From IMG/VR virus record IMGVR_UViG_3300037264_007739, positions 1 through 64,000 of that record: a DNA stretch of 64,000 nucleotides; one strand, 5' to 3'. Below, piece by piece: positions 3,898 through 51,126 of the stretch. The notes beneath the pieces were generated by a model, which ran no database searches, was not told where the DNA came from, and saw only the letters and a list, made by a program, of their open reading frames with translations. The position numbers and the translations under genes were made by a program. The number at the start of each line of letters is the position of its first letter. The stretch's first letter is position 1. This stretch comes from a virus.

Positions 3898-6519
3898 ATG
3901 GCTAGCACAATATTCTTTCAGGGCAAAGTCATCGCGACGCCGGGCTCGTACTCCGAGGTCGATGCGTCAGGACTCGAACAGATCGGTCTTGGCGCGACCG
4001 GCATTTGTGCGCTCATCGGCACGGCAGTCGGCGGCAAGCCGGTGTCGACGTCGTTGCAGACCTCCGAGTTCATCCGCCTGAACACGCCCGAGAAGGTCCG
4101 CCGCACGTTCCGCAGCGGCGACCTGCGCGAGGCCGGCTCGATGATCTTCGAGCCCTCGAGCGATGCTGACATCTTGGCCGGCGCGCAAGAGGTCGTCTTC
4201 ATGAAGACGAACCAAGCGACGCAGGCATCGAGGACGTTCAGCAACAGCAACGGGACGTCGCTGATCGTGGTCTCGCAGGACTACGGCGAGTTCACGAACC
4301 AGATCTCGATCCAGCATCAGGCCGGCACCAACCCCGGGACGAAGCGGATGACGGTGTCCTTCGAGGACACAACCGAGGCGGCCGACAACGTCGGCGGTTC
4401 GGACATCTTCACGCTGCGCTACACCGAGCCCAGCGCGCTCACGGGCTGGGACGCTGTCCGGGCGCAGATCCTCAACTCAGGCGTCAAGATCAATGCGACG
4501 CGCCGAGAGACGGGTCTCTCAGCCCACGTACTCGCGGCGATTACTGCCGGCGAGAATGTTCGTGTCTCCTCGAACAACGTGGGTGACACGCAGCAGATCA
4601 CTGTCTACGGCCTTGATACCGGCAACAACCCAGTGAGGGAGACGCTCCAGCTCAACGGCACGGCGCTCATCATCGGCACGCAGACTTGGAACACGGTCTG
4701 GGGCGCGTCGCTCTCGTCGCCGGCGATCGGCACCATCCTCGTTGAGGAGGACGCTGGTGCCTTCCCCGATCTCCTCTCGTTTGCTGCGGCGCAATCGACG
4801 CGCGGTCTCGTGCTCGGCTCGACGATGTTCGTCGCGAACGCGCCGCTGTCACTCGTGGCAGATGCGCCGTCCACGGCGTCCATTCTTCTGTATGGAAGAA
4901 ACGCCGCCGGCCTTGCAGCGGCCGAGCGCGTCATCCTTACGGGTACGACGTACGTTCGGACGCTGACCTCGTGGTCGCAGATCGACGTCATCGTGCTCGG
5001 CGATCTCGATTCTGTAGCGCCGCGTTTCCTGCTCATTGCAGGTACGGCAGTTCAATCGCTCAACACGACGCAGAACACGGTGAAGAAGCTCGCCGATCTC
5101 GTGAACGCCAAGAAGGTCGGCGCCGACGGCTTCACGCTCGAGCTCGTCACCGGGAACCTCTCGTTCCTCGTGGCGGATGTGGATCTCACCGCCGACGCTT
5201 CGCCGACGACGAACGCGGACATCACGCTGATCCTCCCGACGGGCTCGGACATCAAGACGGCGGTGCTCGGCTTCAAGGCGAACTTGAAGGCGATGCTCGA
5301 CTTCTACACGAGCAACTCGCAGCTCGCAGATGCCACGCGCATCGCGTTCCTGCCGAAGATCGTCGACGTCACGGTGACCGCGTTCGCGACGGTGACCGTC
5401 ACGATCGACGGCTACAACGTCTCGGGGACCGGTGGCACCATCGACGCGACGCGCGACGCGCTCATCGTGGCGATCAACAATGACCACCGCGTGAACCAGC
5501 GCGTCTTTGCCGCCTCGAACGGCGCGGGGATCGTGCGGATCACCGCGTTCACGCCGGCGGGCTTCACGTTCGCCGAGGCGGACGCGAACCTCACGAGCGC
5601 GAATATCCAGTCGACGGCGGGCGTCGGCGCGCCGCCGGACAACACCTCGCTGCCGGAGTTCCTGACGGGCGGATCGGAAGGGCTCTCGACGTTCGCCGAC
5701 TTCCAGAACGCGCTCAACCTTCTGAAGAAGGTCCGAGTGAACAGCATCGTCGTGATGACCGGCGATCCGGCTGTGCACGCCGCGCTCGACGCGCACTGCG
5801 CGTTCATGGGTGGGCTCGGGCGTTCGGAGCGCGACGGCTTCGTCGGCCTTCTCAACAGCGGTCTTACGGGCGTGCCGAATAAGACCGAGGCCAAGAGCCA
5901 GATCGTCGACATCAACTCGCGGCACATTCGCGCGTTCGCGCAGACGATCACGCGGTTCAACACCGCGGGCGAGCGCACGGACTTCTTGCCGCCGTTCCAG
6001 GCCGTCATCGCGGCTGGCATGCAGGCCGGCGCCGTGGTGGGCACATCGCTCACGCACAAGTTCGCCAACGTCCTCGACGTGAAGCAGGACGCGACCTGGA
6101 ATCCAATCGACGACACCGAGGAGATGATTCAGGCGGGCCTCTGCTTCATGGAGCGGCTCGACGGCGTTGGCCGTCGCTGGGTCCGAAATGTCACCACCTG
6201 GCTGAAGTCGAACAACATTGCCTTCATCGAGGGCTCGGTGAACCAGGCGGTGAACTTCGCCGTCTTCGAGTTCCGAACGACACTCGAGACCGTGGTCGGC
6301 AAGCGAGGCTTCGCAGGCACGATCAATGCTGCAAAGGGCGCCGCGCTCAACAAGCTCGGGCTTCTCATTGACTCAGGTTCAATCACGACGTTCCGCGCGC
6401 TCACGATGGAGCTCATCGTTGACGTGCTCGAAGTTTCGGTGGAGATCGCGCCGATCATCCCCATCAACTTCGTGAAGTCGACGATTCACCTGGTAACAAT
6501 CCGCCAGGCCGCCGCGTAA
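3898..6519 (+). CDS. Tail sheath protein
   Basis: An 873-residue contractile tail sheath subunit. The N-terminus (GKVIATPGSYSEVDASG) and the C-terminal third (LLIDSGSITTFRALTMELIVDVLEVSVEIAPIIPINFV) match the conserved sheath core that forms the helical collar and attaches to neighbouring subunits. The middle (about residues 130-600) carries large beta-rich insertions that should project from the sheath surface, making it longer than T4 gp18 (659 residues). Start 3898 is preferred because AAGG lies 9 bases upstream; an in-frame ATG at 3889 has no room for a ribosome site. It is followed by the tube gene. Confidence 0.9.
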   Translation: MASTIFFQGKVIATPGSYSEVDASGLEQIGLGATGICALIGTAVGGKPVSTSLQTSEFIRLNTPEKVRRTFRSGDLREAGSMIFEPSSDADILAGAQEVVFMKTNQATQASRTFSNSNGTSLIVVSQDYGEFTNQISIQHQAGTNPGTKRMTVSFEDTTEAADNVGGSDIFTLRYTEPSALTGWDAVRAQILNSGVKINATRRETGLSAHVLAAITAGENVRVSSNNVGDTQQITVYGLDTGNNPVRETLQLNGTALIIGTQTWNTVWGASLSSPAIGTILVEEDAGAFPDLLSFAAAQSTRGLVLGSTMFVANAPLSLVADAPSTASILLYGRNAAGLAAAERVILTGTTYVRTLTSWSQIDVIVLGDLDSVAPRFLLIAGTAVQSLNTTQNTVKKLADLVNAKKVGADGFTLELVTGNLSFLVADVDLTADASPTTNADITLILPTGSDIKTAVLGFKANLKAMLDFYTSNSQLADATRIAFLPKIVDVTVTAFATVTVTIDGYNVSGTGGTIDATRDALIVAINNDHRVNQRVFAASNGAGIVRITAFTPAGFTFAEADANLTSANIQSTAGVGAPPDNTSLPEFLTGGSEGLSTFADFQNALNLLKKVRVNSIVVMTGDPAVHAALDAHCAFMGGLGRSERDGFVGLLNSGLTGVPNKTEAKSQIVDINSRHIRAFAQTITRFNTAGERTDFLPPFQAVIAAGMQAGAVVGTSLTHKFANVLDVKQDATWNPIDDTEEMIQAGLCFMERLDGVGRRWVRNVTTWLKSNNIAFIEGSVNQAVNFAVFEFRTTLETVVGKRGFAGTINAAKGAALNKLGLLIDSGSITTFRALTMELIVDVLEVSVEIAPIIPINFVKSTIHLVTIRQAAA

Positions 6520-6552
6520 CAGGGAAGATGAAAGAGAAGCAGGAGAAGCGCC

Positions 6553-7044
6553 ATGCCGCATCAATTTCCAAAGGGTCACGTCTTCTCGGGAGCGCGGGCA
6601 CGTTTCTCGATAGCGGGAAAGGCCATCGGCTACGCTACGAACTGCACGGGGTCGGAAGAAATCCAATACGAGCCAGTCGAGGTACTCGATCACATTCAGG
6701 TGGCCGAGTTCGTGCCGGTAGGCTACCGCGTGACGTTCAGCGCGTCGCGCGTGCGCCTCATGGGCACGCAGGCCGGGATAGATTCGCTCCGCGGACTGGG
6801 TGTGTTCCCGAATCTTGGCAGCGACGACAGTAGCTTTCTCGAGAACATCCTCAACCTGATTCAGGCTGGCGATATGAATTGCCAGATCGAAGACTCGAAC
6901 CCGCAAGGCGCCGCCAAGATTTTCATGCAGCTCGAGCAGGTGGTGATTGCCAGCCACAACTGGGCGATCACACCTCGCGGCATCGTCGGCGAGGACATCA
7001 ACTTCCTCGGCGTTCGCATGAAGGACGACAACGAAGCTAACTAG
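6553..7044 (+). CDS. Tail tube protein
   Basis: A 163-residue protein in the canonical position just after the sheath gene. Its length and beta-rich pattern (ending in VVIASHNWAITPRGIVGEDINFLGVRM) fit the T4 gp19-like tube fold that stacks as hexameric rings. The start is well supported by AGGAGAAGCGCC. It should form the inner tube driven through the envelope when the sheath contracts. Confidence 0.82.
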   Translation: MPHQFPKGHVFSGARARFSIAGKAIGYATNCTGSEEIQYEPVEVLDHIQVAEFVPVGYRVTFSASRVRLMGTQAGIDSLRGLGVFPNLGSDDSSFLENILNLIQAGDMNCQIEDSNPQGAAKIFMQLEQVVIASHNWAITPRGIVGEDINFLGVRMKDDNEAN

Positions 7045-7073
7045 GCAGGCATTCAAATAAATGGAGGGATGAC

Positions 7074-7565
7074 ATGACGCAAACAGCAAAGCCGGAGACG
7101 CTTCAAGAGCGACTTCGCATGACCCATCTTGAGGGCGACATCGACGAGCTGAAGGAGCGAGTCGCTGCTTCAGTCTCGGTGCCAGAGGCCGCGGGAGACG
7201 CACCACCGGACGAAGAGACGTGGACCTTCCCGTTCTCGTATACCGACGCGCGAGGGCAGGTCTGGGCCGGCACGTTCACGAACGAGATCCTCGATCTCGA
7301 GAAGCAGGGCTACGTCGCGAACCTTCGCTCGCGCCTCCAAGGAGGGCAGCCGCAGGATTCGATTGACCCGTCGATCATCGAGCTGAATCTCGCGATCGCG
7401 TGGCTCGCCTACTCGCTCGTAGGGAAGAAGCCGGACTGGGCCAAGAATCTGCGCAAGATCAAGGACCCGGAGGTGGTCATGTCGCTCTACGTGAAGGCGA
7501 GGGCTCACGAAGACCGCTACTTTCGACGCACAGCGAATCCGAGCGCGAGCGAAAGCAGCGAGTGA
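7074..7565 (+). CDS. Tail assembly chaperone, short form
   Basis: A 163-residue acidic protein between the tube and tape measure genes, the position of the phage G-type tail chaperone that coats the tape measure during assembly. The start follows GGAGGGATGAC. Near the 3' end the + frame overlaps an open +1 frame at 7495-7962, so a longer fusion is likely made by frameshifting, as in many tailed phages. The fold (SIIELNLAIAWLAYSLVGKKPDWAKNLRKIKDPEVV) agrees with a helical chaperone domain. Confidence 0.75.
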   Translation: MTQTAKPETLQERLRMTHLEGDIDELKERVAASVSVPEAAGDAPPDEETWTFPFSYTDARGQVWAGTFTNEILDLEKQGYVANLRSRLQGGQPQDSIDPSIIELNLAIAWLAYSLVGKKPDWAKNLRKIKDPEVVMSLYVKARAHEDRYFRRTANPSASESSE

Positions 7566-39236: not shown

Positions 39237-41897
39237 CTACCTCTCGATCACGAGCCAGCCGGCTGGGACTTCGTCCTTGCGCACGCCGCAGACCATCGCC
39301 TGCGTGAGCGCGCCGGTGTCGACGGCCTCCTTGATCTTCGCGAGGAGCGTCTGGAGGTTCTCAGGACTCGAGTGAAACGGCCCCAAGTCCTCGTCGTCGA
39401 GGGTGAGGAATCGCGCCGGGGCGCCCTCAGTCCACGCGAGCGCGAGCGCGACGAGAAGGCTTGCTTTCTCAGCGCCGCACATCGTGTGCCGGTTGTGGGG
39501 CCGGTTGTCGGCGCCGATCGATCGCCACTCGCAACCGCCGCCCGAGAGATCGAGCTTCGCCGTGAAGCCGACCGGCATATACTTGTTGACCGCCGTCTCG
39601 GCGCCGACCGCGACCTGCTGGAGCAAGTTTTGGAGGAGCGTCTCGGCCTCCTTCTCGAGCACCTTGGCGATTGCTTGCTCGTTCCGCTTCTCGCGGATCG
39701 TGGTCTCGAGCTGCGCCGTCATCGTGCGCATGTTCTCGGTCTCGCGGAGCGTGTCGATCTTCGCCTTGATGCTCGCGCTCGACTCCGAGATCGCCGCTGG
39801 CGCCGATGCGAGCACCTGCTGGAGCGCTTGGATTCGAGCCTGTGTCGTGGCCGCCGATCCTTTCAGGATGCCGCGCTTCGTGTCGTGACTCCCCTTCGCG
39901 CGGTCGTAGGACGACTTCTCCTGCGTGAGGCGGTCCTTCGTCTGCGCAATGTTCTGGTCGATCGTCCGAATACGCGCCTGGAGCTGCTCATGTGCCGGTC
40001 CGCGTTCTTGGATGATGGCGGCGAGCTTGTTTCGACACGCGACGGGGTCGATCTCGACGTCGAGGATCGGGAACGTCGTCGCGCTCGCTTGGATCATCGC
40101 CGCAAAGATGTCGTCGAGCGCTTGGATCCGCTTCAGTCTTGGTGCGAGAAGCGCGGCCTCGTCGACGAACTTCTGGCGCTCGACGTTCGCGTCGGCGATC
40201 GCGCCGTTCATGACCTGATCGAGCTGGGTGAATTTCTCGCCCCACTGCACGATCTCGCTATCCTGGCGGAGAAACTCGTTCGCCTGCGTCTCGAGGCCGG
40301 CGTACTCCTGCTCGGAAAGCTGGAGCTGCCGGCGTGTGCTCTCGAGGTTCTCGTACGCAACCGCCGCCTTGAATTGCTCCTCGAGCTGCGGGATGAGCTC
40401 GGCACCGGCAGCGGCCTCGGCGAGCTTCGTCTGCGCTTCCTTGAGCTGCTTGTCCGCCGCGTTTGCTTCCTTCCCGAGCGCGAGCTTCTTGGACGCCATC
40501 ACGCGGTTCATCTCGGAGAGGATCTCGGAGGCGTCGCTCGTCTTCGCCGCGACTTCTTCGATCGTCGTGCGCCAGAAGATCGTCTGATCGGAGTTGAGCC
40601 CCTTCGGCATCGGCACGCCTGCTTGATGCGCGGTGACACCGTGGCCGAAGCGCTGAAAGATCGCGCGCCGTGCCTTCACGTCGCCGACGAGGAAGTTCTT
40701 CATCGTCGTCGCAGGAAGCGCTCGGTCTCGGGCTTCCTGCCCGTCGAGCACCTTGAGTGCGCCAAAGTATTCGGGCTTCTCGGGCGGCTTCTTGCCGTCC
40801 TTCACCTCGTAGTGCGCCGACCCTGTCGTCGAGATCAGCATCGAGGAGATCTCATCGGCGCCCTCGGGCGCGTACTCCATGTAGTCCTGCGCGTGAACGC
40901 AGCCGGGCGCCTTGCCGGTGATTCCCATCTCGAAGGCGACGCGCGTCGCTGTCTTGCCGCGACGATTCCCACCGCAGACCGCCATGAGCGGCGCCAGGGC
41001 TACATCACCGTGGAGCCCCTTCAGGTTCGCCTTCATCGAATTGAAAGGCTCGATCTTCGCGGGCGCAGCCGATGTTTGAATCCCGCCGACGCTCGGCGTG
41101 AAGCCAACGCCGAGACCGAGCGGTGTCCCCATGAGGTTCGTGCCGACGTTGCCGACGTGCGCGGGCGGCGCGTGACCGTTGCCGGCCCCGTTGCTCGCAG
41201 GCGCAGCCGTCACTGGTGCGCCGAAGCCGAACGGGTCGTCCGCCGTCGCGATGGCTTCACGGTCCTGTTCGATATCGGTCTCGTCGGTCAGAACAACGCC
41301 TTCGCCTTCGTTGATCGACACGGGATCGGTCTTCGACTTCTTGGTGCTCACGGTCTTTCGTTTCGCCATGGTCATCCCTCTCTTTTCTGCTTCTGCTTTT
41401 GCGTCCCACGGTCGCATTCGCGGACCGTCGGGCGGTGGGTTCGGTGTGTAGATTACGACTGCGCTCGGGAACGTCGCCCCGCTCTCGGCGCCCTCGAATT
41501 GAATGCGGCCCTTGATGAGCCGGACCTCGGTGGCGCCGTCGACGACATGTGAAAACCACCATTGAGTGTCGGGCCGCGCCGGCACGAGCATGATGACGAC
41601 GCCCGGATGCGCGCGAACTTCGGCTTTGGCTTTTGCCATCCACGCGCCGATGCCACGTCCATATGGAGGATTCACAAATACACTGAGTATATCGCCAGCG
41701 CTCAGGTTCGATGGACCGAGCCACGGCTGCACGAGCGCGTCGTCTTTCTCGGTCCAAAAGAGCGAGCACTTCGCGTTTTCGGGCGACGCCGCCGCGTCGA
41801 GATCGAAGGAAAACTCGAGATGGAGAAGACTGAAGAGCCACGACGGCGTCGCCCAGTCCATTTTCTCGCTCGAAGTGAGCACGGCGTGACCCTTCAT
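39237..41897 (-). CDS. Phage Dam methylase in frame with SMC/Rad50-like ATPase (886 codons)
   Basis: One uninterrupted frame. Codons 1-173 are a phage DNA N6-adenine methyltransferase (Dam, pfam05869 type) with DWATPSWLFSLL, DLDAAASPEN and catalytic NPPYG at 76-80. There is no stop before a second protein that begins MAKRK at nt 41369, where AGAGAGGGATGACC forms a perfect internal ribosome site. The second part is SMC/Rad50-like: Walker A GGNRRGKT (near codon 305), long coiled coils, signature MCGAEKASLLVALALAW and Walker B RFLTLDDEDLGPF. Both a fused product and a separate ATPase are plausible; the sequence favours the latter also being made. The ATPase likely acts in recombination or repair. 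Confidence 0.8.
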   Translation of the reverse strand: MKGHAVLTSSEKMDWATPSWLFSLLHLEFSFDLDAAASPENAKCSLFWTEKDDALVQPWLGPSNLSAGDILSVFVNPPYGRGIGAWMAKAKAEVRAHPGVVIMLVPARPDTQWWFSHVVDGATEVRLIKGRIQFEGAESGATFPSAVVIYTPNPPPDGPRMRPWDAKAEAEKRGMTMAKRKTVSTKKSKTDPVSINEGEGVVLTDETDIEQDREAIATADDPFGFGAPVTAAPASNGAGNGHAPPAHVGNVGTNLMGTPLGLGVGFTPSVGGIQTSAAPAKIEPFNSMKANLKGLHGDVALAPLMAVCGGNRRGKTATRVAFEMGITGKAPGCVHAQDYMEYAPEGADEISSMLISTTGSAHYEVKDGKKPPEKPEYFGALKVLDGQEARDRALPATTMKNFLVGDVKARRAIFQRFGHGVTAHQAGVPMPKGLNSDQTIFWRTTIEEVAAKTSDASEILSEMNRVMASKKLALGKEANAADKQLKEAQTKLAEAAAGAELIPQLEEQFKAAVAYENLESTRRQLQLSEQEYAGLETQANEFLRQDSEIVQWGEKFTQLDQVMNGAIADANVERQKFVDEAALLAPRLKRIQALDDIFAAMIQASATTFPILDVEIDPVACRNKLAAIIQERGPAHEQLQARIRTIDQNIAQTKDRLTQEKSSYDRAKGSHDTKRGILKGSAATTQARIQALQQVLASAPAAISESSASIKAKIDTLRETENMRTMTAQLETTIREKRNEQAIAKVLEKEAETLLQNLLQQVAVGAETAVNKYMPVGFTAKLDLSGGGCEWRSIGADNRPHNRHTMCGAEKASLLVALALAWTEGAPARFLTLDDEDLGPFHSSPENLQTLLAKIKEAVDTGALTQAMVCGVRKDEVPAGWLVIER
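41369..41385 (-). promoter_or_regulatory. Internal ribosome binding site and start inside the Dam-ATPase frame
   Basis: On the - strand AGAGAGGGATGACC precedes ATG at 41369. It matches the start context of several other genes here (GAGGGATGAC) and would start the SMC-like protein apart from Dam. Confidence 0.6.
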
Positions 41898-42500: not shown

Positions 42501-42832
42501 CAGCCCTCCGCCTCGACATTGCCGGAGACGATCTGCCCGACCGCCATCCCGATCTCGAGGAGCTCCTCGGCGGTGTACTTCGAGCGCTCTTCGGGCGTGC
42601 CGAAGAACGGGTGCTCGGCGCCCCAGAACTCGTAGATGCGCTTGGCGACCTCGAGCGAGTAGTACCCGCTCGCGTAGCCGAGATGCTCCTTGATCACCGC
42701 TTCGGCGTGATCGCGTTCGACGCCGGTCGCTGCCATCACGAGGCCGATCTCGTGCTCGAACCACTTGGTGGCGTCTTCCTTCGATGTGCAGCGCAGCGCA
42801 CCGCGCTCGAACCATGACTTGAGATTCATCAT
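42500..42832 (-). CDS. Hypothetical protein, 110 residues
   Basis: Begins MMNLKSWFERGALRCTSK; helical (VERDHAEAVIKEHLG). GGAGAGCAATCG provides the ribosome site within the end of the phosphatase gene. Function unknown. Confidence 0.55.
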   Translation of the reverse strand: MMNLKSWFERGALRCTSKEDATKWFEHEIGLVMAATGVERDHAEAVIKEHLGYASGYYSLEVAKRIYEFWGAEHPFFGTPEERSKYTAEELLEIGMAVGQIVSGNVEAEG

Positions 42833-43410
42833 CGATTGCTCTCCTCTTTGACGTGATTCCGAATCGACGGCCAGCTCATGAGCCGAAGCAACTTCGTGGC
42901 GCTGCCGTTCGGTGTTTGGTTGTACGAAGCGTCGAACAGAAAGGCGCGCTCGTATGCGTTCGCCGCGCTCGTCCAGCGGTGCGCCCAGGCTTCGACCGTC
43001 TCGAGCTTGTCGTCGATGAGTAGGTCGCCGTGGACACGCGCCTTCTTATTGCCGGGCACGGACATCATGTGGTCGTGCGAGATGTCGAAGTGCTTCTTGA
43101 GCCACGCACGACGGACGCCCTCCCAGTCCTTGCAGGAGTGGAATGGTGCGGTGATTGCGACGACCTCGTAGCCGATCTCGCGCAGGTGCTCGACGCCCTC
43201 ACGCGCGCCATCGAGAACGGGGATCGCGAGCCACCAGTCCGGGTCGTGCCAGAGCTTCTTGAGCTCGGCTTTTTCCTTTTCATCGAGATAGTCGCGGATC
43301 TCCCAGGTGACGATCTCGCTCGGCTTCACCCGTCCGCCGACGCAAGTGAGCGTGTGCGGCGTGAAGGCGGCGAGTACGCCGTCGACGTCGATGAGTGCGG
43401 TGCGGTTCAT
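42829..43410 (-). CDS. 5'(3')-deoxyribonucleotidase (HAD family)
   Basis: A 193-residue HAD-type phosphatase. The catalytic motif is IDVDGVLAAF with Asp8 and Asp10. VVAITAPFHSCKDW (motif II) and GDLLIDDKLETV (motif IV, near residues 125-136) follow, as in NT5C-like enzymes that dephosphorylate deoxynucleotides. This fits the phage nucleotide-metabolism set. Confidence 0.8.
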   Translation of the reverse strand: MNRTALIDVDGVLAAFTPHTLTCVGGRVKPSEIVTWEIRDYLDEKEKAELKKLWHDPDWWLAIPVLDGAREGVEHLREIGYEVVAITAPFHSCKDWEGVRRAWLKKHFDISHDHMMSVPGNKKARVHGDLLIDDKLETVEAWAHRWTSAANAYERAFLFDASYNQTPNGSATKLLRLMSWPSIRNHVKEESNR

Positions 43411-43604: not shown

Positions 43605-43833
43605 CCGTCTCCTCCTCTTGATGGGTGAAGATGCTCGGCGGCGTAATCGTGCACCGTGCGTCGTTGAGTCCGTCGGCGATGAGTTGCGCGAGATCGACGG
43701 ACTTCAGATCAGGCCGCACGTAGCGTCCGACGACGAAGTACCCGTCACCGCAGAAGGCGAGGATCCTCTCGTCGTTCCTGAGATCAGGAATCCGACGAGC
43801 GGTCTCGTCCATCTTCACGACCCGGGCACTCAT
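43597..43833 (-). CDS. Small hypothetical protein, 78 residues
   Basis: Start overlaps the polymerase stop (ATGA). Beta-prone (ILAFCGDGYFVVGRYVRPD). Unknown function; co-transcribed with the polymerase. Confidence 0.55.
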   Translation of the reverse strand: MSARVVKMDETARRIPDLRNDERILAFCGDGYFVVGRYVRPDLKSVDLAQLIADGLNDARCTITPPSIFTHQEEETDG

Positions 43834-46800
43834 GCGTTGTCCGCCAAGTTTCTCGAGGCTTTGGCTTCAGCAAAGATCGGCATCTTCCACCCGTCGGCGC
43901 ACGTCATCTCGGTGCGCATGCACTTGTTGAAGATCTTGATCGTCTCGTCGGCACGCTCTTCGGGCACGAACGCCGCGAGGTAGTCGTGGATGTCCATGCA
44001 GAGCCCCGTGTAGCGCGACCACTTGCCGAACGGGATCTCCTCGTGGAGCCGCAGGATCGCTTCGTTCTTGATCTCGCCGGCCGCGCCTTGGATCTCGTGG
44101 TTGGGCGGCGCGTTCTTCTTGTTGGGCCCGCCAACGAAGAAGCGCTTGCGCTGCGACATGATCGGCGTCATCGCGTAGCCGTTGCGCCGAACGAAGTCGT
44201 GCACGCGACGGTGCCACCGCTTCGTCTCGGGGTGGCGCTTCTCCCAGCGCTCCTCCCACTCGGCGACGCGGGATGGCTGAAGGTTCGGGAAGACGCGCTT
44301 GCCGGTCGCCTTGTCGCGCTCGGAGCTCATCGCGGAGAAGAGCTTGTCTTCCTCGCCGCCGTAATTCTTCAAGTAACACACGCGTTTTGCGACCGTGCGG
44401 ATGTACTTCATCTCGGACTTCTCGTCCTTGGTGCCGTAGAAGTGCTTCCGCATGAACTCGCCGTAGAGCGGCATGATGTCGCTCTCGTGCTCGGCCATGA
44501 TCGTCGCCGCGTTGAGGCAGTGCGGGTCGGAGTGATCCTTCCCGTTCACGACGAGCGTCTCCTTGAAGGACCGCAGGACGTACTGATCGTCGGCGACGAC
44601 GCCGTAGATTCGGAGCTCGATCTGCTCGTAGTCGGCGCCGACGATCACGTGCCCTGGGGGCGCGATGATCATCTTGCGCATGTTCGTAGGCTTGCCGTCG
44701 ACGGTCCATCCACGCGATGGCCAGTTCTGGATCGTGGGTTCGCAGACCCAGCGGCCTCCTGGAATTACATGAATTTTCCACGTCACCGGCATCCACGAGA
44801 TCTCGGGACGCGCCGGTAGGATCTCGGCGTTGTCGATGATGACGGGGTCGAGCTGCCCGAGGCACGCGAGGAAAGCGCGCATCGCCTTCACGTCACCCTT
44901 CCAGGTGATCGTCTCGTCGTGCATCACGGTCCAGTCGTAGTGGACCTTGAGGTTGTCGATGTACGACCCTCGTAGCTTGTCGCACGCTCTGAACTCGAGC
45001 TCGGCGTTGATGAACTGCTCGGCCTGGTCGTCGACGCCGAAGTCGAGGAGCTTCATCAGTGACGGCGTCGATGACGAAGCATCGTCGCCGGGCTCCCATT
45101 CGTAGCCTTCGGTGTTGAGCGGCGGCGCATAGCCCTTCTGCCCGTAGAGGAAGTCTTTCACCTGCGGCGGCGAGCGCGGGTTGAAGTCGTTGCGCGCGAC
45201 GATCGTGCGGATCTTGTCTGTGAGCCCTCGGGTGATCTTGTTGAACTTGAGGGAGAGGTCGCCGCGCTCCTTCTCGTCGATGAAGAGGCCGAGGCGCCCC
45301 ATGTCGCGCGCGATCGGCGCGAGGTTCGAGTCGAGGCGGAACTGCGGCACGTTGCCGCACTCGACGATGCGGTTCTCGATGATTGGCTGGATCCGCATTG
45401 TGATCAGCACGTCTTTTGAGTTGTAGAGGTGTAGATCGCTGTCCTTCTCGGTGTTCTCGTCAGCTTTGTGGTCAACGTCGTGCTTCCAGAGAGGCGCCTC
45501 GGTGAATTGTCGGGCGCAGAATCCAAGGTCGTGTGGAAGGTCGTTGGAGTCGGTGTTCTTTTGCCCGACCATCGTGTCGAACCAGATCTTCGACACGTCG
45601 GTCATGAGGCCGAGACGGAGAAGAACGCCGGTGTCGAAGAGCCCGTTGTGGAATGTCAGGTGGCACGTGTCGATCGCGCGCCGAATGGCGTCCTCGACGC
45701 GCGTTCGATGCGACCGGTTCCGCCAGAACTCGCGGCCGGAGCGCCACAGGAGCGGGGCAGAGATGACGCGCTCTTGTTGTCCAATCAGAGACGAAACGGT
45801 CATGCCCATGCCGACGACGCGGATGAGGCACCGAACGCCGATCGAATCGGTCTCGATGTCGACGGTGAGCCGCGCGACGCCGGCGTTCGCTACGAACCAC
45901 GCCGAGTGCTCTTCGATAATCCGTACGCGGGTCTCGTCGTCCTCGGGCCATTTCTCGAAGTAGGCGAAGTTCGGCTCGTGCCAGTCGATCTTGTTTCCGC
46001 GCTTGGCGATATGCGCTGCCCGAGCGATGTTGTCGCGGACGACCTGCGTGTACTGCCGATTGTTCCGCATCGCGAACGCAGGATGCAGTGATGAGGCGAG
46101 GATCGTTCCGTCTGGCATGACAGCCGGTGAGCCGTGCTGCCCCTTGATCGTGGAGAGCACGGTGTTGCCCCTGGTGCTCCTGACGTTCAGCCCGTAGGAG
46201 ACGCCATAGTGATGCGCCATCGCGCGCAGAGCCTTGCCGCCGACGGCGAGCACGGTCTTCGACGCCGAGACGTTCATCTCGTAGAGCAGACGCGGCGCGC
46301 AGGCTTCGAGCGGCGAGATCTTTCGTTCAGGTGGTGGAAGACCGCGTTTCTCGGCGTCCTCGCACGCCTTCTTGTGAGCACGTGTCAGCTTCTCGAGGTA
46401 GTCGTCGAAGTCCTCTGGTGGTTGGCAGAGAATTGTGTTCGTGATCGTGCAGTCGTTCCGCGCGAGACCGCCCTGCGCGAGTGATTGATCGAGCTCGACT
46501 CCGCTTGCTCCACAGTTATGCACCACGAAGCCGTTTGCGATAAATGTTCCGGCCGTAGTCTGAATATCGACGACCTCTCTGGCGCCGTGTGTATCCTTCG
46601 ACAGGACTTCCGATTCGCTGAGTCGCGCCTCTGGTGGGCGTGATCCGAGCATTCGGACGAGATCGTTCAAGAGCCGCGTCGGCCGTGTGACGCCAAGGAA
46701 CCTCAGAGAGGCATTGAACCCACCAGCAATGTGCCGGCGTGCGCAGACGACGCCGTTCTTCCTAGACTCCTCCTTCGCGCGAAGGGAGAAACCGAGACTG

Positions 46801-47522
46801 GAGACCGCACGCTCAGCACGCGCCAGCACCGGGCCGACATTCTGCGAGAATCCGGCAATGAGCTTCGCCCTATTGGTTTTGTTCCGCTTCGAGCCTGTGA
46901 GATGGCCTTCGCCGTCGATGAAGCCAGATAGCCAGCCGGCTTCGTAACTCATGTCCTGCTGCCATGGTCGTCCGATCCAGACAATTCGTGAGGCGTGACC
47001 ACCAGGTCGCCTGGCGCGTATGAGCTGTTGAATCGTGCTCCAGCCCGCTGTGTTACTCCGCCTTCGGCAGAGCACACCATGATCGTCCGTTCCAATCAGC
47101 TCGCCATCCGCAAGCATGACCCGGGTGGTCGGACGCACGGATTTGTGGACGCCTGTAATGCGCGCAATTCTCCAGCGGCGTCCCTTCCGCTTCGTAACGC
47201 CGTAAGTTGCAGAGGTTGCATGCTCATCAATCGTGAGGATCTCATCCCCGATCTTGGCATCGCCGAGGAGGCGCCAAGTGAGATCTGCGTAAAGAACGAG
47301 TGTCTCCGGTACGAGGCAGAATGGTCTTCCTTGCTCGACTTCGTTTCGCCCCGGCGCCTCACCGATGACGGTCAGTCGCGCGTTCGGTGTGAGCTCTCCG
47401 ATGACGGGGCCGCGCCCGCAGCCAAAGAGCGGACACTCCTTGCATCTCGCACCCAGAGCGATCGCGGGTGCGTGAGCTTCATCGGCGGTCTTGGGGCGCG
47501 TAGTGAAGTTGAGCAGATCCAT
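43830..47522 (-). CDS. Family-4 uracil-DNA glycosylase / family A DNA polymerase fusion, intein-interrupted
   Basis: A 1230-residue precursor starting MDLLNFTTRP; an upstream in-frame extension is Arg-rich shadow of the SSB-like gene and was dropped. Residues about 20-68 and 337-500 are a Fe-S type UDG: CKECPLFGCG, the active-site loop GEAPGRNEVEQGRPF, ITNTILCQPP and C later. The 3'-5' exonuclease has DIETD near 558. The polymerase palm has motif A GADYEQIELR (near 960), motif B KRVCYLKNYGG and motif C MDIHDY (near 1170). A 268-residue intein splits the UDG. After splicing the protein would be 962 residues, able to excise uracil and synthesise DNA, probably the phage replicase. Confidence 0.9.
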   Translation of the reverse strand: MDLLNFTTRPKTADEAHAPAIALGARCKECPLFGCGRGPVIGELTPNARLTVIGEAPGRNEVEQGRPFCLVPETLVLYADLTWRLLGDAKIGDEILTIDEHATSATYGVTKRKGRRWRIARITGVHKSVRPTTRVMLADGELIGTDDHGVLCRRRSNTAGWSTIQQLIRARRPGGHASRIVWIGRPWQQDMSYEAGWLSGFIDGEGHLTGSKRNKTNRAKLIAGFSQNVGPVLARAERAVSSLGFSLRAKEESRKNGVVCARRHIAGGFNASLRFLGVTRPTRLLNDLVRMLGSRPPEARLSESEVLSKDTHGAREVVDIQTTAGTFIANGFVVHNCGASGVELDQSLAQGGLARNDCTITNTILCQPPEDFDDYLEKLTRAHKKACEDAEKRGLPPPERKISPLEACAPRLLYEMNVSASKTVLAVGGKALRAMAHHYGVSYGLNVRSTRGNTVLSTIKGQHGSPAVMPDGTILASSLHPAFAMRNNRQYTQVVRDNIARAAHIAKRGNKIDWHEPNFAYFEKWPEDDETRVRIIEEHSAWFVANAGVARLTVDIETDSIGVRCLIRVVGMGMTVSSLIGQQERVISAPLLWRSGREFWRNRSHRTRVEDAIRRAIDTCHLTFHNGLFDTGVLLRLGLMTDVSKIWFDTMVGQKNTDSNDLPHDLGFCARQFTEAPLWKHDVDHKADENTEKDSDLHLYNSKDVLITMRIQPIIENRIVECGNVPQFRLDSNLAPIARDMGRLGLFIDEKERGDLSLKFNKITRGLTDKIRTIVARNDFNPRSPPQVKDFLYGQKGYAPPLNTEGYEWEPGDDASSSTPSLMKLLDFGVDDQAEQFINAELEFRACDKLRGSYIDNLKVHYDWTVMHDETITWKGDVKAMRAFLACLGQLDPVIIDNAEILPARPEISWMPVTWKIHVIPGGRWVCEPTIQNWPSRGWTVDGKPTNMRKMIIAPPGHVIVGADYEQIELRIYGVVADDQYVLRSFKETLVVNGKDHSDPHCLNAATIMAEHESDIMPLYGEFMRKHFYGTKDEKSEMKYIRTVAKRVCYLKNYGGEEDKLFSAMSSERDKATGKRVFPNLQPSRVAEWEERWEKRHPETKRWHRRVHDFVRRNGYAMTPIMSQRKRFFVGGPNKKNAPPNHEIQGAAGEIKNEAILRLHEEIPFGKWSRYTGLCMDIHDYLAAFVPEERADETIKIFNKCMRTEMTCADGWKMPIFAEAKASRNLADNA
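46515..47318 (-). mobile_element. Intein with LAGLIDADG homing endonuclease inside the UDG domain
   Basis: 268 codons (precursor residues 69-336). Block A begins Cys69 (CLVPETLVL), block B has TDDH, a LAGLIDADG-like motif AGWLSGFIDGEGHL lies at intein positions 127-140, block F reads VVDIQTTAGTFIANGFVVHN, and the C-extein starts with Cys. The insertion is between GRPF and CGASG of the glycosylase motif. Splicing residues (Cys1, B-block His, terminal His-Asn, +1 Cys) are intact. One clear LAGLIDADG motif suggests a dimeric or minimal endonuclease. Confidence 0.93.
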
Positions 47523-50508: not shown

Positions 50509-51126
50509 CTATCTGTGACCATGATCCTCTATCCCGGTCAAGGCAGCTTGCTTGTAGGTCAGCCCAAGCCGAATGAACCGAATCGTCTTGGGCGCAAGTC
50601 CGAAATGACGTGCGATTTCTCGCGTGGGTAGATCCGATTGCCGGATTTCCTCCGCTTGCCGGTCCGTCAGTTTCCTCTTCTCACTTCGCTTACCGCTTGT
50701 GTTCCTGCCCTTTTGGATCATGTCGTGCACGTTGTCAGTACGCGTTCCGAGGAATAGATGATCCGGATTCACACACGCCCGAACGTCGCAACGGTGCAGT
50801 ACACAGAGCCCTGATGGGACGGGTCCTTGCTGTAGCATCCAACTCACAACATGGGCTCGCCCTTTTTGCTCTGTTCGTTTTCCGATAGCGAGCACGCCGT
50901 AGCCGCTGCGGGTGATATATCCGATCCAGAGAAGGCATCCGCGCTCTGTAGGGATGTGACAGATCTTCGCTTTGATGACGAGCTCGATCGACTTCTCGAT
51001 GCGCGCGATCGCCGCACGGTTCTCTTCGAGCTGCTCTTCGACTGCCGCGCAGATCGACCCGAGGTTTCCGTTCGGGTCGACTGGGCCCAGACGCGCTTCG
51101 AGCGATTCGCGCACGCGCCCCATCAT
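50509..51126 (-). CDS. HNH endonuclease with coiled-coil N-terminus (possible chimera)
   Basis: A 205-residue protein. Residues about 65-140 form an HNH domain (GCLLWIGYITRSGYG...VLHRCDVRACVNPDHLFLG) and a HTH-like tail follows (LTDRQAEEIRQSDLPTREIARHFGLAPKTIRFI). The first 54 residues (ICAAVEEQLEENRAAIARIEKSIELVIKAK) are an unrelated coiled coil. The HNH may have inserted in or after a small gene and fused with it. It lies between the SF2 helicase and the nuclease gene, overlapping the helicase stop. Confidence 0.83.
   Translation of the reverse strand: MMGRVRESLEARLGPVDPNGNLGSICAAVEEQLEENRAAIARIEKSIELVIKAKICHIPTERGCLLWIGYITRSGYGVLAIGKRTEQKGRAHVVSWMLQQGPVPSGLCVLHRCDVRACVNPDHLFLGTRTDNVHDMIQKGRNTSGKRSEKRKLTDRQAEEIRQSDLPTREIARHFGLAPKTIRFIRLGLTYKQAALTGIEDHGHR

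Follow-up and report, generated by a model that had tools for sequence, protein, structure and literature searches.

Fusions of a uracil-DNA glycosylase (UDG), an exonuclease, and DNA polymerase A (PolA) have been published for PaBG (gp205) and the Lupandier group (11 phages), in a paper whose main text mentions inteins in the terminase only (PMC7412058). Separately, members of an intein family residing in terminase-like proteins have been published with splicing shown, and a reporter assay showed splicing of one of them, the Pham3880-g intein of ScottMcG gp245 (PMC5050341). The uracil pocket into which such an element might intrude is well-defined in the family-4 enzyme Thermus UDGa, where it comprises E41, G42, E47, F54, N80, and H155, and where the F54A mutation lowers activity about 17-fold (PMC5387724). 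Here, we describe a member of this intein family situated within the UDG of a three-domain fusion, in a viral stretch of 64,000 nucleotides (hereinafter the window) that forms part of the 73,097-base IMG/VR record IMGVR_UViG_3300037264_007739.

The Host Gene and Its Neighborhood

The UDG–exonuclease–DNA polymerase A precursor gene occupies positions 43830..47522 on the minus strand (1230 codons plus the stop, with the ATG at 47520-47522), and its stop-free frame (43833-47522) specifies 1230 aa, with an N-terminus, MDLLNFTTRP, that matches the start of the Rctr197k PolA in alignment. Pfam searches recovered UDG as two pieces, one on each side of the intein, DNA polymerase A (PF00476, 3.6e-27) at residues 926-1225 (43848..44747, minus strand), and, weakly and below the cut-off, a 3'-5' exonuclease. 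The host of the intein is the DNA-copying enzyme of a tailed phage. Removal of the 268 intein residues from the 1230-residue precursor leaves 962 aa, the arithmetic behind the spliced length of about 962 residues given in the first-pass annotation. That annotation had also named a counter-case, namely an intact UDG elsewhere in the genome with a degenerate domain here; the record instead has one UDG, with its pocket residues kept, and a second intact copy is thus absent from this record, which may be a fragment.

Directly downstream of the fusion gene is a gene for an NT5C-type pyrimidine 5'-deoxynucleotidase (42829-43410, minus strand), which could also be active on dUMP. The window also has a gene for an 886-aa protein (39237-41897, minus strand) whose N-terminal region is a Dam-type adenine methyltransferase and whose long C-terminal part has no Pfam match. 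The window further contains a free-standing homing-type HNH_3 endonuclease gene (50509-51126, minus strand), with a PD-(D/E)XK nuclease encoded on one side of it and an SNF2-like helicase on the other.

The Interrupted UDG Domain

We mapped the insertion point by alignment with intein-free UDG–PolA proteins and solved family-4 UDGs. The N-terminal piece of the UDG (residues 27-68; 47319..47444, minus strand), delimited by Pfam, NCBIfam, and alignment, contains C27, C30, and GEAPGRNE, and has F68 as its last residue. The C-terminal piece (residues 337-520; 45963..46514, minus strand), delimited by Pfam and alignment, contains N362, C366, C408, and LHPAF with H480. The cut falls between GRPF and CGASG, immediately past the uracil-pocket phenylalanine F68 (F54 of the Thermus thermophilus enzyme, Tth), and in its general form the motif is G-x-PF-(V/C)-G with the break after the Phe. 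The alignments thus bear out the earlier proposal that a family-4 UDG motif is split at PF↓CG (the arrow marks the insertion point).

The family-4 motifs GE(A/G)PG..E, PF, TN, and HP(S/A) are all present in the window exteins, as are the pocket residues E55, A56, E61, F68, N362 (Tth N80), and H480 (Tth H155), with D371 at the position of Tth N89. The four putative Fe–S cysteines, C27, C30, C366, and C408, are likewise kept. Thus, the exteins resemble an intact family-4 pocket divided just after the pocket Phe. The NCBIfam family-4 UDG model scores 57.8 bits (curated cut-off 125.3) with the domain split by the intein. Residues 1-520 were also modeled in unspliced form from a 10-row alignment (pLDDT 81), and the resulting structure has inteins as well as family-4 UDGs among its matches. 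Because the insert follows F68, the uracil pocket is interrupted before splicing, as had been suggested for the precursor, and it is plausible that UDG activity would be lost until splicing.

A Class-1 Intein with a Single LAGLIDADG Unit

The intein spans precursor residues C69-N336 (268 codons; 46515..47318, minus strand), with borders supported by NCBIfam, relatives, and an AlphaFold2 model; the previously annotated interval was right to the base and its frame is open. It begins with CLVPETLVL and finishes with VVHN, followed by a Cys at +1. On its own, it is matched by the NCBIfam intein-containing model (3.4e-13) and intein C-terminus model (0.035), while independent relatives align across all 268 residues with E as low as 5e-26. 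The family occurs once in the 73,097-base record in a profile search (E 1.9e-104, with a profile that includes the window intein).

Among 66 aligned relatives, C1, H80, E137, G138, H267, and N268 are invariant. Accordingly, the splice residues regarded as intact in the first-pass annotation are all in place: Cys1 of block A (47316..47318), the TxxH of block B as TDDH at intein residues 77-80 (47079..47090) with H80, the C-terminal His-Asn of block G (46515..46520), and, from alignment with intein-free hosts, the +1 Cys of the C-extein (precursor C337, 46512..46514), all on the minus strand. This is the full set of class-1 positions. The block-F His, a common feature of inteins, is missing from the window intein and likewise from its relatives. 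The AlphaFold2 model, built from an alignment of relatives with three rows from annotated records left out, has a mean pLDDT of 93.5 and displays the Hint fold plus one LAGLIDADG unit; in the PDB, it is matched best by the PI-SceI and GyrA inteins (Foldseek, inteins E 3.5e-7). Judged from its sequence and modeled fold, the insert is a class-1 intein of a phage-borne family, with self-splicing predicted.

The endonuclease unit (intein residues 125-226; 46641..46946, minus strand) is modeled with an alpha-beta-beta-alpha-beta-beta-alpha topology and matches Pfam LAGLIDADG_3 with an E of 0.0035, under the Pfam cut-off. The LAGLIDADG motif noted earlier is present in one copy as GWLSGFIDGEG (46905..46937, minus strand), with the Glu at the catalytic position, E137, being one of the invariant residues. 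Two such motifs are usual in intein endonucleases; the window intein, with one unit per chain, is at most of the single-motif type, and it would therefore be expected to act as a homodimer. The endonuclease part and the N-terminal splicing part are equally conserved (40.3% vs. 41.9%).

An intein from a Streptomyces plasmid (L010:2501-3505), whose first 37 residues are close to those of the window intein (CLAPETLVLYADMTWRPIGEAKIGD), has two LAGLIDADG-like motifs and lies in an unannotated host protein, with a similar site in L112.

Inteins at the Same Codon in Other Hosts

A whole-gene pattern search of viral contigs, made before the alignment was used, gave no match, and L003, the sole match of the first intein search, proved not to be an intein. 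We then scanned 2.9 million viral contigs with the intein alignment and considered the best 80 of 220 relatives. The nearest relatives of the window intein, at the top of the ranking of these best 80 of 220, are same-site inteins: the four best contigs represent three loci (L016, identical to L017; L018; and L019), all with the identical UDG site. A second scan added the locus L099 and a genome scan added L113. As for cellular family-4 UDGs with a window-type intein, one genome scan returned none and another returned L113 only, on a contig labeled as a Salinibacterium MAG that may be phage. In all, the scans yielded five other loci (four viral contigs and one bacterial MAG contig) with an intein at the identical codon, making six with the window. 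In these five, the intein is preceded by PF or PL and followed by CG. A UDG–PolA fusion is encoded at 5/6 of the same-site loci, with L113 coding for an incomplete UDG without a fused polymerase.

Among the intein-free host relatives, the nearest five have Val at +1, a residue that cannot act as the nucleophile; hence, the Cys of the window lineage was either co-converted with the intein or already present in the invaded allele. Among viral stretches with GE(A/G)PG..E...G.PFC (n = 98), 89 are intein-free PFCG, and the intein is found in only four contigs (three loci). Thus, Cys at +1 is natural in viral UDGs, and we ruled out that it is a scar solely of the window intein.

A different intein-like insert was observed in the exonuclease region of the UDG–PolA protein of L014 (frame 5731-7353, from about residue 390) at RWLD↓CYLDSETEFL; the UDG site of this protein is intact as RPF↓VGKTG, with no insert.

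Probable Mobility of the Intein and Alternative Readings

Across the same-site loci, identity is 37-49% for the inteins and 22-27% for the C-exteins, although part of this difference may be due to inteins evolving more slowly, and not to transfer. In the window, GC3 is 64.9% for the intein vs. 85.1% for the C-extein, equal-length (804-base) stretches of which range over 79.1-92.2%, and the intein has a lower GC3 than its C-extein at 6/6 same-site loci. Moreover, host proteins closer than those of any other intein carrier have the site empty: L011/L012 are 47% identical to the window host protein and L141 is 44% identical to that of L019. The shared site, the intein vs. extein identity, the low GC3, and the empty closer relatives together form the pattern of a homing intein with horizontal movement. 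At the DNA level, the site showed no evident conservation other than that imposed by the protein motif. The window intein is thus probably a mobile element, and the PF↓CG position of the UDG seems to be a repeatedly invaded and hitherto unreported intein site.

We infer splicing, endonuclease activity, and homing for the window intein, and consider it highly likely that this is a class-1 intein with a single-motif endonuclease, set in the UDG pocket, whose splicing restores a 962-aa enzyme and which homes at PF↓CG. After translation, it would excise itself by the Cys1/Cys+1/Asn route, ligating GRPF to CGASG and restoring a family-4-like pocket on the 962-aa enzyme. Its endonuclease, probably as a homodimer, would cleave intein-free UDG–PolA genes of co-infecting phages at PF↓CG, and repair of the cleaved gene would copy the intein into the site.

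In place of one homing lineage, the same-site inteins might stem from separate insertions at a favored protein motif. In the tree, the six group with the inteins of L101 (5001-5771, a UDG–PolA protein) and L102 (5001-5765, a similar protein), which lie at the exonuclease site (W)RYN↓CEDAV. In the best tree the UDG-site inteins are not a clade, as L101/L102 are nested among them, which speaks for separate insertions; one possible reading is that the intein relocated within UDG–PolA genes. However, this eight-row group is supported at 100/96 and has one codon position in all but two rows, and a single clade of the six UDG-site inteins is not rejected (p-AU 0.173), leaving separate insertions unlikely. 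We regard as very improbable the reading of the element as a decayed insert that has lost splicing or endonuclease activity, with the phage polymerase being UDG-dead: while the relative at L113 might hint at such decay, in the window the splice and endonuclease residues are all intact in an open frame, the extein pocket residues and cysteines are kept, and the fold model is of high confidence.

The intein might also be a post-translational switch, with splicing awaiting a redox or metal cue and thereby timing uracil removal or the whole polymerase. Its position next to the pocket Phe, separating the two halves of the putative Fe–S cysteine set, the use of Cys for both splice nucleophiles, and its retention at an identical site in six divergent hosts are all compatible with this. 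Against it, L019 (3800-7582) retains the intein though its UDG is decayed (SDYPG in place of GExPG, no HPx), whereas in its relative L141 the UDG reads GEGPG and the PFCG site is empty; control of the UDG is therefore unnecessary for persistence. Further, the nearest host relatives are intein-free, the intein GC3 looks foreign, and homing elements choose conserved-motif sites anyway. Together, these observations make a switch quite improbable, and we likewise give little credence to the more specific conjecture that PF↓C of phage UDG–PolA is a dedicated hotspot at which conditional splicing (e.g., on Fe–S loading or redox) times uracil removal in replication. The earlier suggestion that the intein "gates" the glycosylase is hence unsupported as regulation; under the homing reading, the interrupted glycosylase is only a physical consequence of the insertion.

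With these loci, a DNA-repair pocket joins the list of sites used by homing inteins. Six inteins at one site in widely differing hosts, along with empty relatives, provide material for comparison, through which one could test how the site is chosen, how the flank is converted (Val or Cys at +1), and what it costs to have a glycosylase disabled prior to splicing. The single-motif endonuclease of the window intein is of a compact type.

Comparison with Known Systems

The solved family-4 enzymes, Thermus thermophilus UDGa (1ui0/1ui1), T. maritima TM0511, and S. tokodaii UDG (4zby), share the motifs and the fold around the insertion point but are intein-free, and TM0511 has V after PF in the alignment where the window has C. 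The Virus Rctr197k PolA (KX853510) is 40% identical to the window protein, with matching domain order and UDG motifs, but its UDG is intact (EREGF↓VGASG) rather than intein-split. PaBG gp205 and the Lupandier group show the same three-domain order, with the intein comparison drawn from the main text of the paper. An intein is also present in the family-A polymerase of the M. intracellulare plasmid pM018 and is 29% related to that of the window, but it is located in the polymerase domain at ALNY↓CIQS. To say that the polymerase part is the usual home of inteins is thus imprecise: in related phage or plasmid polymerases, they occur in the exonuclease region at L014 and L101/L102, in the polymerase region of pM018, and at the UDG site. 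No publication on a UDG intein turned up in the literature searched, which included few subscription journals and not InBase, so the site is only provisionally unreported.

The Pham3880-g intein of the Bixzunavirus (LinStu gp250, ScottMcG gp245) belongs to the same family, being 32% identical over all 268 residues, and like the window intein has one LAGLIDADG motif, C1, and a terminal HN; we infer from its description that the LinStu protein in our tree is the Pham3880-g member. Unlike the window intein, it resides in a terminase-like ATPase domain, rather than a UDG, and has Ser at +1. Thus, while UDG–PolA fusions and a splicing relative were already known, what seems new here is the intein at the UDG site in unrelated phages.
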